This document shows, in pieces, positions 3,886-28,510 of a DNA stretch of 31,477 nt. The translations under genes and the position numbers were made by a program. The stretch comes from a virus. The number at the start of each line of letters is the position of its first letter. Within the stretch, counting starts at the first letter, position 1. Under the pieces are notes generated by a model, which was not told the origin of the DNA, did no database searches, and was given only the letters and a program-made list of their open reading frames with translations. The DNA lies in IMG/VR virus record IMGVR_UViG_3300013132_000164, positions 1 through 31,477 of that record; one strand, given 5' to 3'.

Positions 3886-4617
3886 ATGAAAGATCATTTA
3901 CTAGACATTGTACAACATACTCACGGCCTGGGTGTGATTGACTTTGTGAAAATTGTTGGGTCAGAAACAGAAACCGCAATCGAAGCTATTGCTGAAAACA
4001 AAAGCGTAATTTTGCAAGCTAAATTTAGCGGCCCTATGGCTGAGTTTATTGGCACGTTTGGCATGCCGAATTTGGGTAAACTTAATACCATTCTTAATAT
4101 TCCTGAATATAAAGACGACGCTGTGATTACAGTGATTCGTCAAAATAAAAATTCCGAAGATGTGCCAGTTGGTATTCATTTTGAAAACAAAACTGGCGAT
4201 TTTAAAAACGATTATCGTTTTATGAGTGCAGAAATTGTAAACGATAAACTAAAATCCGCAAAAATGCGGCCGGTTAAATGGCATATCGACATTGTGCCCA
4301 GCGCGGCCAGTATCCAAAAACTTAAATTTCAAGCCAGTGCTAACAGTGAAGAAACTACCTTCGTAGCAAAAACAGATAAGAATGATCTAAAATTTTACTT
4401 TGGTGATCATAGCAGTCACGCTGGGGATTTTGTATTTCAATCTGGAGTTAGCGGTACATTGTCTAAAGCCTGGCATTGGCCTGTTGCAGTTGTTATCAGT
4501 ATCTTGAATCTGCCCGGCGATAAAACATTTAAAATCAGTGATGAGGGTGCAGCTATGATCACAGTTGACAGTGGTATTTCTCAGTACAATTATATTCTGC
4601 CTGCACAAACAAAATAA
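3886..4617 (+). CDS. 45: Sliding clamp, DNA polymerase processivity factor (T4 gp45 type)
   Basis: The protein is 243 aa; T4 gp45 is 228. Sequence similarity is diffuse, as is usual for clamps. The C-terminal stretch (LKFYFGDHSSHAGDFVFQ, then the strands around ISILNLPGDKTFKISDEGAAMITV and a final YNYILPA) follows the gp45 end, where alternating beta strands close the ring. The polymerase upstream has a clamp-binding-like tail, which supports the call. Clamps encircle DNA, hold gp43, and in T4 also activate late transcription. The start ATG has a good ribosome site (GGAG, 6 nt upstream) and the gene has its own candidate promoter. A gp45 identity is likely but rests on pattern and context. 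Confidence 0.8.
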   Translation: MKDHLLDIVQHTHGLGVIDFVKIVGSETETAIEAIAENKSVILQAKFSGPMAEFIGTFGMPNLGKLNTILNIPEYKDDAVITVIRQNKNSEDVPVGIHFENKTGDFKNDYRFMSAEIVNDKLKSAKMRPVKWHIDIVPSAASIQKLKFQASANSEETTFVAKTDKNDLKFYFGDHSSHAGDFVFQSGVSGTLSKAWHWPVAVVISILNLPGDKTFKISDEGAAMITVDSGISQYNYILPAQTK

Positions 4618-4630
4618 TAACTGAGTAACA

Positions 4631-6199
4631 ATGTTCACTATTCCACAAGACAATTTAACAAAAAAGCAAAACGACTACGCAATATTTTTGCCGGCCTTAA
4701 GTAGTTTTTATTCGAGGGATATCAGTAAGCAAAGACTAGATCCAAATTATATTGATCCGGCAAGAATCCCTGCGGGATTTGAACATGGTATTGAAGGGAT
4801 GAATTGGCTCAATGACCAGATTGGGTATTTTACTTATAAGTGGAATTTATACAGTGCAGGTCATGCTGATTTAGATGTAAACAAACCACCGGGTCGTGAT
4901 GATATGGTTCGTAATCGAGATCCCAATACATTTATTTTAGGTGATAGCGGTGGATTTCAAATAGGTAAAGGGGTGTGGGAAGGCAATTGGAAAGATCCAA
5001 ATTGTCCCAAAGCACAAAAGAAACGATCTCAAGTTCTTTCTTGGATGGATGCTTACATGGATCGGGGCATGATTCTTGATGTTCCAGCATGGGTTGCACG
5101 TAGTCCTGCAGGCCAAGCAGCCACAGGAGTAACTTGTTATCAAGAAGCAGTCGATGCAACTATGATTAACAACGAATACTTTATGCGTAATCGTACTGGT
5201 CGTTGTAAATTTTTAAATGTATTGCAAGGTGAGAATCACTCAGAAGCAGAAGATTGGTATCAGCAAATGAAAAAATTCTGCGATCCTAAACAATATAGCC
5301 AACCGTTTGAAGGTTGGGCTATGGGTGGGCAGAACATGTGTGATGTTCATTTGTTGCTTAAAAGAATTGTGGCTTTGAGGTTTGATGGGTTGTTGGAACC
5401 AGGTTTACATGATTGGATGCACTTTCTTGGCACTAGTAAATTGGAATGGGCTTTGTTGTTAACTGATGTTCAACGTGCTGTGCGTAAGTATCATAATGAA
5501 AATTTCACTATAAGTTTTGATTGTGCAAGTCCTTTTCTTGCAACTGCAAATGGTCAAATTTATTATGATGTTGCAACTCCTGATCGATCAAAATGGAGTT
5601 ACTTCATGCAACCCAGTGTGGATGATAAAAAATACGCTACTGACCATAGGTCTTTACGTGATGCTATTTTACAAGATCAAGTAATGGATTCATTTATGGC
5701 CAGTCCGATTAGTCAAAGATTAACTGTGAAAGATGTTTGCATATACAAGCCTGGCGACCTTAATAAGATTGGTCGAGAAGGTCGTACAAGCTGGGACAGT
5801 TTCAGTTATACTTTACAAATGGCACATAATGTATGGATGCACGTGAATGCAGTTCAAGAAGCTAATAGACAATATGATCAAGGACTATGTCCTGAAATGT
5901 TAGTAGCAACCACTGCCAATAAACGAGATTTTCGACAATACGATCGTAATTTCTTTAAGGATATTGTAAATGATATTTTTGCTACTAGTGATCGAGGACG
6001 AGCAGATGAACTAGTAGAGCATTATTCAAGATATTGGAAAAGTATTATAGGTACACGCGGTACAGTTGGTAAAAAGACTATTAATGCGTCTTATATGTTT
6101 AACAATTTGTTTGAGTCTGATTCAGAGGATTATCCGGCAAGAGATGACAGTGATTTCGATGAGCAAAGACTTAACGATTTAGAATCTACTGTAGAGTAA
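4631..6199 (+). CDS. dpdA: TGT/DpdA-like DNA guanine transglycosylase
   Basis: This 522-aa protein carries the core motifs of the tRNA-guanine transglycosylase superfamily in the right order: LGDSGGFQ at 103-110 (TGT general-acid Asp, here Asp105), FLNVLQG at 194-200 (TGT VQGG region), GWAMGGQ at 228-234 (TGT GLAVGE), HFLGTSK at 264-270, and FDCASP at 296-301 (TGT FDCVMP), whose Asp297 would be the nucleophile. I do not see the CxCxxC zinc motif that follows in tRNA enzymes, and the remaining 220 residues are unlike TGT. That fits phage DpdA, which swaps guanine in DNA for a 7-deazaguanine. FolE, QueD, QueE and YhhQ genes in the next 14 kb make this role much more likely than tRNA modification. 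The subfamily (DpdA1-4) needs a tree. The ribosome site before the ATG is weak (GAG). Confidence 0.85.
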   Translation: MFTIPQDNLTKKQNDYAIFLPALSSFYSRDISKQRLDPNYIDPARIPAGFEHGIEGMNWLNDQIGYFTYKWNLYSAGHADLDVNKPPGRDDMVRNRDPNTFILGDSGGFQIGKGVWEGNWKDPNCPKAQKKRSQVLSWMDAYMDRGMILDVPAWVARSPAGQAATGVTCYQEAVDATMINNEYFMRNRTGRCKFLNVLQGENHSEAEDWYQQMKKFCDPKQYSQPFEGWAMGGQNMCDVHLLLKRIVALRFDGLLEPGLHDWMHFLGTSKLEWALLLTDVQRAVRKYHNENFTISFDCASPFLATANGQIYYDVATPDRSKWSYFMQPSVDDKKYATDHRSLRDAILQDQVMDSFMASPISQRLTVKDVCIYKPGDLNKIGREGRTSWDSFSYTLQMAHNVWMHVNAVQEANRQYDQGLCPEMLVATTANKRDFRQYDRNFFKDIVNDIFATSDRGRADELVEHYSRYWKSIIGTRGTVGKKTINASYMFNNLFESDSEDYPARDDSDFDEQRLNDLESTVE

Positions 6200-10815: not shown

Positions 10816-11508
10816 ATGGCAGAAAAAACTTTAGCACAAGCAATTCGTGAACGTATGAAAAATAATGGGAAAAGATTCTGGGCTGGAGACAACATTAGTG
10901 GCTACATTGCTCCGTCGGATAAAGAACATTTAATCCAAGAAGCTACTACAGCTTTCGAATCTGTATTAGACGCTTTACTAATTGACAGAGAAACAGATCC
11001 CAATAGTCGAGGAACTGCACGTAGATTAGCAAAAATGTACTTTAATGAGATTATGGCAGGAAGATATGATCCTGCTCCTGATTGTACAGCATTCCCTAAT
11101 GACACAGAAGATCGTTACGAAGGTATGCTTGTTGTTCGCAGCGAGCTTCGCAGTATGTGTAGCCATCATCATCAACCCGTTACTGGTGTTGCTTATATTG
11201 GCATTATTGCTGCTCAAAAACTTATCGGACTTTCTAAGTACACAAGGATCGCACAATGGTGTGCAAGACGTGGTACTCTCCAGGAGGAACTTTGTAATGA
11301 TATTGCTCGGGAAATAGGTCTTGCAACTGGTGCAAAAGACATTGGCGTCTACATTGAGGCTCAACATGGGTGTTGCCTTAATAGAGGAATTATGGCACAT
11401 AGTTCTCTAACGCAGACCACTGTGTTAAAAGGTGCGTTTAAAGAAGATAAAGGAACTAAGAAAGAGTTTTTTGATAATATTCTTCTTCAGTCAAGAAATG
11501 GAAATTAA
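10816..11508 (+). CDS. folE: GTP cyclohydrolase I (first step of 7-deazaguanine synthesis)
   Basis: The enzyme converts GTP to dihydroneopterin triphosphate. The 230-aa protein contains the zinc ligands Cys115 and His118 in MCSHHHQP (114-121) and Cys186 in HGCCLNRG (184-191), plus GLSKYTRIAQWCARR at 138-152, which is typical of the FolE core. The ATG follows the aminotransferase stop by 2 nt. In phages this gene usually feeds the QueD/QueE pathway rather than folate, and both partners lie downstream. The last codons are unusual: they overlap, in antisense, the 3' end of an HNH endonuclease gene, and a second copy of the folE end (12154-12209) lies on the far side of that gene. The current C-terminus, after KKEFFDNI, therefore probably arrived with the mobile element. 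Confidence 0.96.
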   Translation: MAEKTLAQAIRERMKNNGKRFWAGDNISGYIAPSDKEHLIQEATTAFESVLDALLIDRETDPNSRGTARRLAKMYFNEIMAGRYDPAPDCTAFPNDTEDRYEGMLVVRSELRSMCSHHHQPVTGVAYIGIIAAQKLIGLSKYTRIAQWCARRGTLQEELCNDIAREIGLATGAKDIGVYIEAQHGCCLNRGIMAHSSLTQTTVLKGAFKEDKGTKKEFFDNILLQSRNGN

Positions 11509-12088
11509 ATCTTTTCTTGAATAGATAAGGAGTAGTGTTAAAATGTCGTGATACGGCTCCTAGAGTAGGAAAGACTAAATCCTCCACTACTATAGGACGA
11601 ACATTGGGATTGTTGTTATTTAAACTCATACGCTGTCGTTGTTCAGGTCGTTTCATAGGATTGTGTTCAATCATCCGTTGTCGAACTTGTTCAACAATTT
11701 CTGGAGTAGAGAATATATTGTCTTTACCTCGTTTGTAAGAGCCCTTAGATTTACGAGTGTTAGACATTTTAACATAAGATTCAGGGGTACAGTATATTTG
11801 AGGCGTAGGAAGGTGCGAAGTATCGTAGTGTTTATTAAACAGTTTATAGGCATACATCATTTTATATTTGTTTATTCCGATGGTCATTCCTATCAATAAA
11901 CGATGGCAAACTCTATGTTCCTTGTAAGTCAGAACAGCAAGATTATCAGTAGAATCAGTTCCGCCAAAACAGCGTGGAATAATATGATGAGTCTGAAATC
12001 CGTCGTGCCGTTTTTTAAGATGATTACGCTCAAGAGCAATGTTGATTATTCTGTAATAAACTTTAGTGTATTTGTTATCTAAGAACAT
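11456..12088 (-). CDS. HNH homing endonuclease inserted at the folE 3' end
   Basis: One of only two clear genes on the - strand. The 210-aa protein has an HNH motif, HHIIPRCFGGTDSTDNLAVL, followed by a further His in EHRVCH. A C-terminal block (VVEDLVFPTLGAVSRHFN) resembles the NUMOD1/IENR DNA-binding helix of homing endonucleases. I chose the internal Met (AGGA, 8 nt upstream of the ATG) over the Met 15 codons earlier, because a late-type promoter box overlaps that earlier start. The 3' end overlaps folE by 53 bp in antisense. Free-standing endonucleases of this kind cut a cognate gene lacking the insertion and spread by recombination. Confidence 0.88.
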   Translation of the reverse strand: MFLDNKYTKVYYRIINIALERNHLKKRHDGFQTHHIIPRCFGGTDSTDNLAVLTYKEHRVCHRLLIGMTIGINKYKMMYAYKLFNKHYDTSHLPTPQIYCTPESYVKMSNTRKSKGSYKRGKDNIFSTPEIVEQVRQRMIEHNPMKRPEQRQRMSLNNNNPNVRPIVVEDLVFPTLGAVSRHFNTTPYLFKKRFNFHFLTEEEYYQKTLS

Positions 12089-12123
12089 TGACTTATTCCT
12101 ATGTAATGTGTTAAACTCAACTA

Positions 12124-12131
12124 TATTTATC
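12124..12131 (-). promoter_or_regulatory. Late-type promoter box of the HNH endonuclease
   Basis: GATAAATA reads on the - strand, one base from the T4 late consensus TATAAATA, about 36 nt before the chosen start codon. Its position and direction fit late expression of the endonuclease. Confidence 0.5.
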
Positions 12132-12153
12132 AAAATGGATGCTGTGACAAATG

Positions 12154-12209
12154 ACTAGAAAGAATTTTTTGACAACATCAAACTTCAACAGGACTGGGCT
12201 CCGAGGTAA
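12154..12209 (+). pseudogene. Displaced original 3' end of folE
   Basis: Read in the frame starting at 12159, this stretch encodes KEFFDNIKLQQDWAPR and a TAA stop. The first nine residues match the current FolE C-terminus (KEFFDNILLQ) except for one Lys/Leu change, and at DNA level most differences are at third codon positions. A one-base loss before the repeat puts a TAG in front, so it cannot be read through from upstream. It appears to be the old end of folE, separated from the gene by the HNH cassette. Its last bases (CCGAGG) supply the ribosome site of the next gene, which may be why it was kept. Confidence 0.8.
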
Positions 12210-12211
12210 TT

Positions 12212-12508
12212 ATGGCACGTAAAAAGAAATCAGAACAAGAAATTATCGTAGAAGTATCCAAACTCAGAGCCGAAGAAACTTTGACTGCAACAGATTGGCC
12301 TATAGTAACCAAAGGCAGTCATCTTACAATTACAGAACACGGAAATGGACGAATTGATATGACGTGGGATTGGGACCAACTTAACAAGGAAATTAACGAT
12401 GCAATACTCCAACACAGCAAGTCAAGCAAAGATACGGTCAGTAAAACCAGTAACAAGACCAGTACCAAGTCAAATGGAAGGAAAGGCAAAAAAAATGAGT
12501 TGGTTTGA
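12212..12508 (+). CDS. Conserved small phage protein, basic C-terminus (98 aa)
   Basis: The first 70 residues look folded (ETLTATDWPIVTKGSHLTI and a WDWDQLNKEI helix) and the last 30 are a Ser/Thr/Lys-rich low-complexity tail. No named domain; similar short proteins are common in marine T4-like phages, from memory. The ribosome site GAGG lies in the folE remnant. The 3' end overlaps the next gene by 14 nt. Confidence 0.7.
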   Translation: MARKKKSEQEIIVEVSKLRAEETLTATDWPIVTKGSHLTITEHGNGRIDMTWDWDQLNKEINDAILQHSKSSKDTVSKTSNKTSTKSNGRKGKKNELV

Positions 12509-14836: not shown

Positions 14837-15538
14837 TTACAAAGATAACAATTTCTTACAATTAGTATGATGCCATCTTTTATAATTACCCGATGATAGA
14901 TTATTTTTACCACATACTTCACAAATCTTATTTTTAGTGTTTAGCATTTCGGCAGCTTTTTTATTCTGTCCAACTTGTAATTTTCTAGCTATAGATATAC
15001 GCAATGCTGTTTCAGTCCCTTTTAATTTAACACCATACCTAGGATTACGTTCTCCCTGAGAATGTTTCTTTACCTTAAATGTTTCTTTACGTTTTAACAT
15101 TGCAGATTCAGAAGTAAAATTTTTAATACCATTCTGTCGTAATTTTTCTTTAAATTCCGGATCTTCTTCTTTATGACGCATTCTAGAAATATAGCTTAAT
15201 TTGGCTGCTTTTGCACCGCCCGAGCACTCGGGGGCAATAGATTTGTTATCAGTTTTATTAAGCCAATCGTTGTTTTTAACCGCGTCTACTTTTTTAAGAT
15301 AACTGGTTTCGAATTCTCTGCATTCAACTACAGAAGAAAAAACTCTATGTATAACTATATAATCTGGGGGACCGTGTTCTTTCCAAAATTGTTTTACATA
15401 TTTAGAAGAAGTCTTATATTTTCCTAATAGAATGTTTATTGGTGATGCCTTTTTACCATACTGACATCCGTAATATTTTTTATTATATATTTTCCAGAAA
15501 AGGAAATAGGTGTATGGTTGTTGATTATAAATATTCAT
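14837..15538 (-). CDS. GIY-YIG homing endonuclease behind queD
   Basis: The 233-aa protein begins with a GIY-YIG-type domain: YTYFLFWKIYNKKYYGCQYG at 9-28, with the second half YYG in place of YIG, and Glu residues in VECREFETSYLKK (71-83) where the catalytic Glu is expected. A NUMOD3-like motif, GERNPRYG, follows in the C-terminal half. The end is a probable zinc finger (CEVCG...HHTNC). The gene is convergent to queD and ends 20 nt past it. It has its own ribosome site (AAGGA) and an upstream late box on the - strand. Confidence 0.85.
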   Translation of the reverse strand: MNIYNQQPYTYFLFWKIYNKKYYGCQYGKKASPINILLGKYKTSSKYVKQFWKEHGPPDYIVIHRVFSSVVECREFETSYLKKVDAVKNNDWLNKTDNKSIAPECSGGAKAAKLSYISRMRHKEEDPEFKEKLRQNGIKNFTSESAMLKRKETFKVKKHSQGERNPRYGVKLKGTETALRISIARKLQVGQNKKAAEMLNTKNKICEVCGKNNLSSGNYKRWHHTNCKKLLSL

Positions 15539-27220: not shown

Positions 27221-28510
27221 ATGACTACTACTAGCAGCGAAAAACGTCAACCCAAACTTGCTGGCAAACTGTCAGACACTGTTAATCCTCAGCTGGATTC
27301 TGCAGTACGCGAAAAATTGGTTACCGCACGTATTGGCCTACTTCTTAAGGCTCCTTTTTTCGGCAATCTTGCTACTAGGCTTAAGCTGGTTAACGCAGAC
27401 AGCTGGCTTGGTACTGCAGCCACTGATGGTCGTAATTTCTATTACAATACCGAATTTGTTAACAAACTCAAACCGCGTGAACTAGAATTTCTTTTTGGTC
27501 ACGAAGTACTGCACAATGTCTATGACCATATCGGACGTACTGGTGACTTCCGAGATTGCCGACTTTTCAATTGTGCCGCTGACTTCTGTGTCAATTCGGA
27601 TTTGATTGAGCAGAAAATTGGTGATCGCATTAATCCTTGTCTGTATGATGCAAAGTATAAAGGGTGGAGTGCTGAAGAAGTCTACGACGATTTGTACGAC
27701 AAAGCCGAAAAAATCGACATTTCGGACTTGCTGGAACAGATGCTAGACGAACACCTTGACGATCAAGAAGACGACAGTGACGGAGATAAAGATACAGACG
27801 GGAACCGTGAGGGCAAAGGTCGTCCACGATTGTCCGATGCTGAAAAACGACAAATTAAGGACGAAATCCGCGAAGCTCTGATGCAGGCTGCACAGGCAGT
27901 GGGAGCAGGTAATCTGCCGTCAGGCGTCAAACGACTGATCAAAGATCTCACTAAACCCGTTGTCAATTGGCGTGAGCTGCTTCAACAACAAATTCAGTCC
28001 ACTATTAAAGATGACTTTACTTGGATGCGGCCAAACCGACGCAGTTGGCACATGGATGCCGTTATGCCCGGCATGCGGCCCGGAACTCAAATTGATGTGT
28101 GCATTGCCATTGACACTTCGGGCAGTATTGGAGAAGCAGACATTAAAGCATTCCTCAGTGAGATCAAAGGCATCATGGAAGCCTACGATGAATATAAAAT
28201 TCAAGTGTGGAGTTTTGACACTGAAATTTATAATCATCAAACGTTCACCAGTGAAAACATGGATGATATTTCCAGCTATCAACCTGCAGGAGGAGGCGGA
28301 ACAGACTTCATGGCCAATTGGGAATACATGAAAGAAAATAATATCGAGCCTAAGAAGTTTATTATGTTCACTGACGGTATGCCGTTTAGTTCTTGGGGTG
28401 ATCCTGATTACTGCGATACAGTTTTCATCATCAAGGGCAACCAAGATGCCGAACCCCCGTTTGGTGTTTGGGCTATTTATGAAAAAGCTCGAGAACTTGC
28501 AGGTGCGTAA
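27221..28510 (+). CDS. HExxH metallopeptidase-like / VWA-domain protein (DUF2201 type), MoxR partner
   Basis: The 429-aa protein has an N-terminal domain with the zinc motif FGHEVLHNVYDH at 92-103 (HExxH, His94, Glu95, His98). A strongly acidic, low-complexity linker spans about 178-200. A C-terminal von Willebrand A-like domain carries the MIDAS motif AIDTSGSIGEAD at 296-307 and later FTDGMP. This architecture matches the DUF2201 VWA-like proteins that pair with MoxR ATPases. The metallopeptidase motif raises the option of a protease regulated by the ATPase. Promoter and ribosome site (AAAGGAG) are strong, and a terminator follows. Confidence 0.88.
   Translation: MTTTSSEKRQPKLAGKLSDTVNPQLDSAVREKLVTARIGLLLKAPFFGNLATRLKLVNADSWLGTAATDGRNFYYNTEFVNKLKPRELEFLFGHEVLHNVYDHIGRTGDFRDCRLFNCAADFCVNSDLIEQKIGDRINPCLYDAKYKGWSAEEVYDDLYDKAEKIDISDLLEQMLDEHLDDQEDDSDGDKDTDGNREGKGRPRLSDAEKRQIKDEIREALMQAAQAVGAGNLPSGVKRLIKDLTKPVVNWRELLQQQIQSTIKDDFTWMRPNRRSWHMDAVMPGMRPGTQIDVCIAIDTSGSIGEADIKAFLSEIKGIMEAYDEYKIQVWSFDTEIYNHQTFTSENMDDISSYQPAGGGGTDFMANWEYMKENNIEPKKFIMFTDGMPFSSWGDPDYCDTVFIIKGNQDAEPPFGVWAIYEKARELAGA

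Follow-up and report, generated by a model that had tools for sequence, protein, structure and literature searches.

The window analysed here, the whole of a 31,477-base viral record, very probably carries a free-standing HNH endonuclease cassette that targets folE, brings with it a recoded 3' end for this gene and leaves the old end stranded downstream. FolE feeds the QueD/QueE pathway that is used by phages to modify their DNA, and the same viral contig also has genes for an exonuclease and for a DNA polymerase of phage type, as well as one QueE-like gene. The layout consists of folE, followed by a convergent HNH gene and then by a second, stranded folE end. The folE ORF (10816-11508, plus strand, 230 aa) has the C-terminus KKEFFDNILLQSRNGN and ends in GTKKEFFDNILLQSRNGN before its stop codon. 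Within it we distinguished a 5' part apparently native to the lineage of the window phage (codons 1-168, 10816-11319), a recoded zone flanking the presumed cleavage site, in which HGCCLNRG replaces HGCCENRG (codons 169-204, 11320-11427), and a 3' end borne by the cassette (codon 185 to stop, 11368-11508, last residues ILLQSRNGN), all on the plus strand. The HNH gene (11456-12088, minus strand) was assigned the ATG start; its ORF is open over 11456-12133 with a TTG at 12133, the first ATG ending at 12088. Over 53 bp the 3'-terminal part of the HNH ORF is antisense to the 3' end of folE. In L087 (3172-3837) and similar cassettes the stop codon of the HNH gene lies antisense to the Ser codon in the SRNG tail of folE; one stretch of DNA thus provides the new end of folE as well as the 3' end of the endonuclease gene.

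Beyond the HNH gene the right end of the cassette is formed by ATTTATCAAAAT (12125-12136, plus strand), which is common to L082/L083, L084 and other cassettes. The displaced folE copy starts directly after it with a 15-nt piece, GGATGCTGTGACAAA (12137-12151, plus strand), that encodes G-C-C-D-K, the active-site codons 185-189 of folE, and continues with a tail (12159-12209, plus strand) translating as KEFFDNIKLQQDWAPR up to a stop codon; the middle of the copy, between piece and tail, is deleted. A preliminary description of this DNA, which had proposed that an HNH cassette replaced the 3' end of folE and left the old end behind, was right in essence. Its second folE end at 12159-12209 was confirmed from the translation, the recurrence of the layout and the ends of related genes, but the old copy is longer than described and also includes 12137-12151. 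Over their first 11 codons (33 bases) the two folE ends of the window share 22 bases and differ in 11. Of these differences, five are synonymous and at third positions, as had been suggested for the differences at large, a description that holds for the shared residues; the other six make up two whole codons (K/L and Q/S). The remnant is identical to uninterrupted relatives at up to 46 of 51 nt (L098, with an intact folE end), and the uninterrupted folE of L003 has the C-terminus KKEFFDNIKLQQDWAPR, an exact match at the protein level. Since the same layout is repeated across dozens of contigs, the remnant does not reflect chance.

A half-site equivalent to the 15-nt piece was found in 25 of 29 cassettes, compared with 0.06 expected by shuffling, and in 13 of 14 cases the half-site matched folE best at codons 182-189; single short half-sites barely exceeded the shuffles, and it is their recurrence and position that carry conviction. 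Whether the right-end element is simply a promoter or ribosome-binding site of a kind general among phages was also considered, since an ATG often comes after it and the downstream genes differ. This reading was rejected, as the element occurs at these junctions only and grades into complete folE remnants (L166, L220 and L226).

To place the window among its relatives, viral contigs were scanned for FolE, which yielded 80 loci, nearly all of them uninterrupted. Uninterrupted folE genes end mostly in NIK[LM]QQ[DE]FAPR or a close variant, as does the window remnant, and HGCCENRG occupies codons 184-191 in all 97 non-redundant uninterrupted alleles from related viral contigs. A minority of the loci have the C-terminus Q[SA]RNG[NK] and never HGCCENRG at these codons, HGCC[L/T/I/V]NRG or HGCVENRG being found instead. 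A DNA pattern search for the QSRNG[NK] end returned 44 stretches, many with an HNH gene, a downstream folE remnant or both. Thus most uninterrupted relatives end like the remnant, as the preliminary description had anticipated, and the current type of end belongs to alleles linked to the HNH cassette. Further cassette folE tails include ARNGK, ESNKR, VSHTR, QQDFSPR and GKGVY, among others. The HNH relatives were collected in scans with two HNH alignments, flanking DNA being required for the 28 distinct loci. All 28 of these, similar over most of their length, were convergent to folE, while 101 weaker relatives, mostly matching in the HNH domain only, were without folE nearby. An old folE end past the HNH gene was present in 21 of the 28 distinct cassettes, in addition to the window, a count in which remnants were found by their tails and complete tail loss is under-represented. 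The source contigs are metagenomic, and the recurrence across dozens of them makes chimeric assembly unlikely for the cassette loci. A search of viral contigs with the next gene (12212-12508) returned no relatives and no uninterrupted sister of the window phage; among isolate phages there was no close HNH relative, the best showing about 35% identity.

The cassette junction lies at folE codon 184/185 (11367/11368 in the window), beside a conserved putative metal-site Cys, because remnants start at G-C-C-E-N and the half-site is recurrent. At three loci (L220, L221/L166 and L226) a complete displaced copy directly follows the HNH gene, starts at codon 185 with G-C-C-E-N and runs as GCCEN[R/S]GIMAHSSLTQTTVLKG through to the stop codon; L221 is the same contig as L187, and L166 and L172 match it. 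L291 and L292 retain GCCENRGI of the displaced copy, and L087 and L027 retain GCCKNSGIKLQQEFAPR with its stop codon. The preliminary description had placed the switch at the last 16 codons, a position that the remnants beginning with G-C-C-E-N contradict; the junction at the KKEFF codons that its coordinates imply was rejected, complete remnants beginning at codon 185. With the junction at this position, the cassette comprises the last ~46 folE codons plus the HNH gene. In an alignment with E. coli FolE, Cys186 corresponds to the Cys of HYCVKARG, which we take to be a zinc ligand. Codons 187 and 188 are changed by the cassettes, and since E. coli FolE has V and K there, changes at these positions should be tolerated.

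The two parts of the gene have different histories. In 57-codon-window trees up to codon 177, the labels cassette and uninterrupted changed 15-23 times, compared with 3-4 changes in trees covering the junction; the label was defined by the last folE residues, which were left out of the trees while the junction codons were kept. SH-aLRT-supported branches of the 5' tree force at least eight cassette-label changes, and the 3' tree groups the cassette alleles with three. For codons 1-120 of the window folE, the top DNA matches were mostly uninterrupted alleles, with cassette and intact labels scattered (19-23 changes). Even without codons 181, 187 and 188, codons 160-192 gave 7 changes versus 17-18 in equal-length controls. 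Codons 193-225 alone separated the classes weakly (11 changes versus 17-18 in equal-length controls) and the prediction of a fixed boundary failed here, which suggests that the 3' end has recombined or become saturated since. The earlier proposal that the current folE end came from a donor folE together with the endonuclease agrees with these trees, in which the history of the 3' end is unlike that of the 5' part. Because 5' trees scatter the same cassette allele that 3' trees group, they indicate that the cassette was acquired horizontally and repeatedly. The folE ORF is open through the junction, the cassette 3' end being in frame with the resident 5' part.

Ordinary homologous exchange between phages, in which a resident HNH gene came in as one block with the folE 3' end, the nuclease playing no driving role, and the remnant arose as a by-product of tandem duplication, seems improbable to us. 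It would fit the scattered ancestry of the 5' part, which reflects free exchange of folE segments among phages, and the HNH activity is predicted from sequence. Block exchange does not, however, account for a single junction at codon 184/185 that recurs with several HNH variants and in many recipients, for full-length HNH relatives located beside folE only, or for recoding that is focal at the junction.

This recoding was scored against uninterrupted codon usage for 51 non-redundant cassette and 97 uninterrupted alleles. In 18-codon windows within codons 169-204, 84-96% of the cassette alleles fell below the 5% quantile of the uninterrupted alleles, compared with 4-41% elsewhere; the alleles are related and hence not independent, and as kinship inflates the statistics these figures are descriptive. 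At codons 178-195 the window allele had a lower score than any of the 101 uninterrupted alleles. Amino-acid and synonymous changes both contribute to the recoding, which is centred on codons 169-204 around the junction and not on the extreme folE end, so that any resistance to cutting would come from there. The cassettes are linked to one target site in alleles without an intact target, this region being recoded in almost all of them. An allele that its own nuclease cannot cut would be expected to show such focal recoding, and we infer immunity on this basis. Cassettes with QQDFSPR-type ends have kept HGCCENRG and are recoded less, so that their immunity may be partial or placed elsewhere. Less easily reconciled with the main reading, HGCCENRG was kept, with weak recoding, in L215, L216, L219 and L296. 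It is conceivable, if rather unlikely, that the recoding of codons 169-204 instead reflects an old donor folE lineage with different protein constraints. The cassette alleles do share ancestry in the recoded region, and the recoding perhaps arose only a few times. On the other hand, synonymous changes are among the differences (codons 190-192 and 194), the differences fall off on both sides, and the tail classes SRNG, ARNG, ESNKR, VSHTR, QQDFSPR and GKGVY are each recoded differently, all of which fits immunity to cleavage better.

Cassettes have also lost their HNH gene. L027, L089, L092 and L177 have kept the remnant and lack an intact HNH gene, with HNH fragments still present in L089; the flanks of the other three match those of HNH-bearing loci (L027 with L087, L092 with L017 and L177 with L193). 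A current-type end plus the downstream repeat at loci without the HNH gene, which the preliminary description had named as evidence against its proposal, was in fact found in L027, L177, L161 and L181. L027 and L177 look like HNH-deletion scars beside L087 and L193, while L161 and L181 are without a paired HNH-bearing sister. Current-type (SRNG-end) alleles without HNH gene and without remnant (L002, L006, L042, L101 and L157) fit the main reading less readily; they would require that both were lost later or that the end was passed on by itself.

The retained folE tail probably serves as the translation start region of the next gene (12212-12508, plus strand), which probably explains why the old tail survives. 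The start ATG of this gene lies 2 nt past the remnant stop codon, and its likely ribosome-binding site, GAGG, is inside the tail. In remnant loci the next gene usually starts with ATGA after CAACAGGA, and the next start was at most 3 nt from the stop codon for 17 of 21 remnants versus 43 of 96 uninterrupted loci. The same counts would suit a second copy that was duplicated for its own sake, as a functional small ORF (a folE C-terminal peptide) or a regulatory element (a leader of the next gene), the HNH gene arriving later; several remnants are short ORFs beginning with ATG. We nevertheless regard this as very improbable, given that complete remnants share one starting codon, immediately at the end of the HNH gene, that remnant lengths differ and some are frameshifted from the half-site, and that such a duplicate is absent from every uninterrupted locus, the repeat at loci without the HNH gene being accompanied by a cassette-type folE.

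The window HNH protein matches the homing endonuclease family PHROG 655 (1.6e-19), scores 20.2 against Pfam HNH, just under the cut-off of 21.4, and gave weak matches to PDB sequences. The motif HH-I-P, GG, N-L, E-H-R-x-C-H is invariant in seven window-type HNH proteins, and dN/dS for proteins of this type is about 0.05-0.18; the gene is thus evidently under purifying selection, with an HNH catalytic motif in an intact ORF. HNH proteins in the same slot of other loci (L166, L189, L087, L193 and L200) are modular mosaics with similar or swapped N-terminal nuclease halves and differing C-terminal DNA-binding modules.

Taken as a mechanism, the HNH endonuclease would target the conserved folE codons H-G-C-C-E-N-R-G, and the cassette would travel with a complete recoded folE 3' end from about codon 185, the recoding extending ~15 codons further 5'. 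During mixed infection the enzyme may cut or nick an intact folE near codons 185-188. Repair off the cassette genome would then have folE 5' DNA for its left arm and, for its right arm, the old folE end past the HNH gene. It would leave the recipient with a hybrid FolE, made of its own 5' part and the donor 3' end, from which the target is gone. The recipient's own 3' end would be stranded downstream and shrink by deletion as far as the last codons, which hold the start of translation for the next gene. On balance we lean towards reading this as a natural home-and-rescue drive in phages, in which the HNH enzyme cuts active-site codons that folE cannot do without and the cassette provides a recoded, uncuttable 3' end, with several classes of different recodings against related enzymes in an ongoing invasion of intact folE genes.

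The closest parallels come from fungal mitochondria, where mORF hybrids of atp6, atp9, cox2 and nad3 in Glomus and of atp6 in Allomyces macrogynus comprise a mobile endonuclease ORF and a host gene whose C-terminal part this ORF has brought in from a foreign source, the hybrid gene being the one in use (PMC3630166). Both in these and at the folE cassette the original C-terminus of the host gene persists beyond the endonuclease gene, and at folE it is complete in L220, L221 and L226; the cassette 3' end is likewise in frame with the resident 5' part. In contrast, mORF enzymes are of the LAGLIDADG or GIY-YIG type and often in frame with the gene (PMC3630166), whereas the folE enzyme is HNH, convergent and on viral contigs. 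The folE cassette further differs in its dsDNA phage setting, its junction-focused recoding and its presence at dozens of loci including stages of decay. By analogy, it appears to work like an mORF, and we do not file it as one. The free-standing Mob/Seg homing endonucleases of T4-like phages, whose targets often encode functionally critical residues and which co-convert flanking DNA (PMC2988022), resemble the folE cassette in this choice of target and putative co-conversion, and in a free-standing HNH gene adjoining its likely target. In the reviewed T4 cases, however, insertion is between genes and the cleavage site lies apart from the insertion site (PMC2988022), while the folE cassette is inserted inside the gene, to which it gives a new 3' end without removing the old one. 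The window HNH protein shows about 31% similarity to T4 MobD over part of the protein. Judged by its ORF, folE bears no group I intron or intein that would have to be spliced out: it is complete and reaches a stop codon of its own ahead of the HNH gene, with no halves to rejoin. Engineered home-and-rescue drives are CRISPR-based and man-made; their nuclease hits a needed gene for which the drive bears a recoded rescue (PMC7968924). The folE cassette resembles them in its recoded, presumably uncuttable rescue and differs in being natural, with a protein-guided nuclease. In the open-access literature we found no phage element bearing a replacement 3' end.

To spare the host gene, a homing endonuclease directed at essential coding sequence has to reside in an intron, in an intein or between genes. 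A recoded replacement 3' end that is carried along would be a fourth solution in phages, and would account for mosaic folE genes in the pathway to QueD/QueE. With more than 50 non-redundant natural alleles at complete, partly deleted and HNH-less stages, the proposed cycle of gain, immunity and loss can be read directly, and the recoded stretch predicts, in a form open to direct testing, where the enzyme would cut.

Several further features were observed. The window encodes a 429-aa protein (27221-28510, plus strand) that matches PHROG 1314 (HNH endonuclease, 2e-108), which gives at least two HNH-type genes in the window, as well as a second endonuclease-like ORF (14837-15538, minus strand) with weak PHROG homing-endonuclease matches and an N-terminus that is GIY-YIG-like by eye. 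An ORF downstream of the scarred folE of L027 (about 4270-4805) is also GIY-YIG-like by eye, which suggests that this neighbourhood draws several nuclease types. In L209 the folE adjoining the HNH gene gives a broken match (31%) and looks rearranged or frameshifted, which may point to damage in a recipient gene or to an error of assembly. A small gene is located between cassette and folE remnant in L161, L180, L189, L200, L286, L291 and L292; it often begins with MNE[RK]I and ends with HFGVEE, the remnant then starting with ATG-(Q)TTVLKG.
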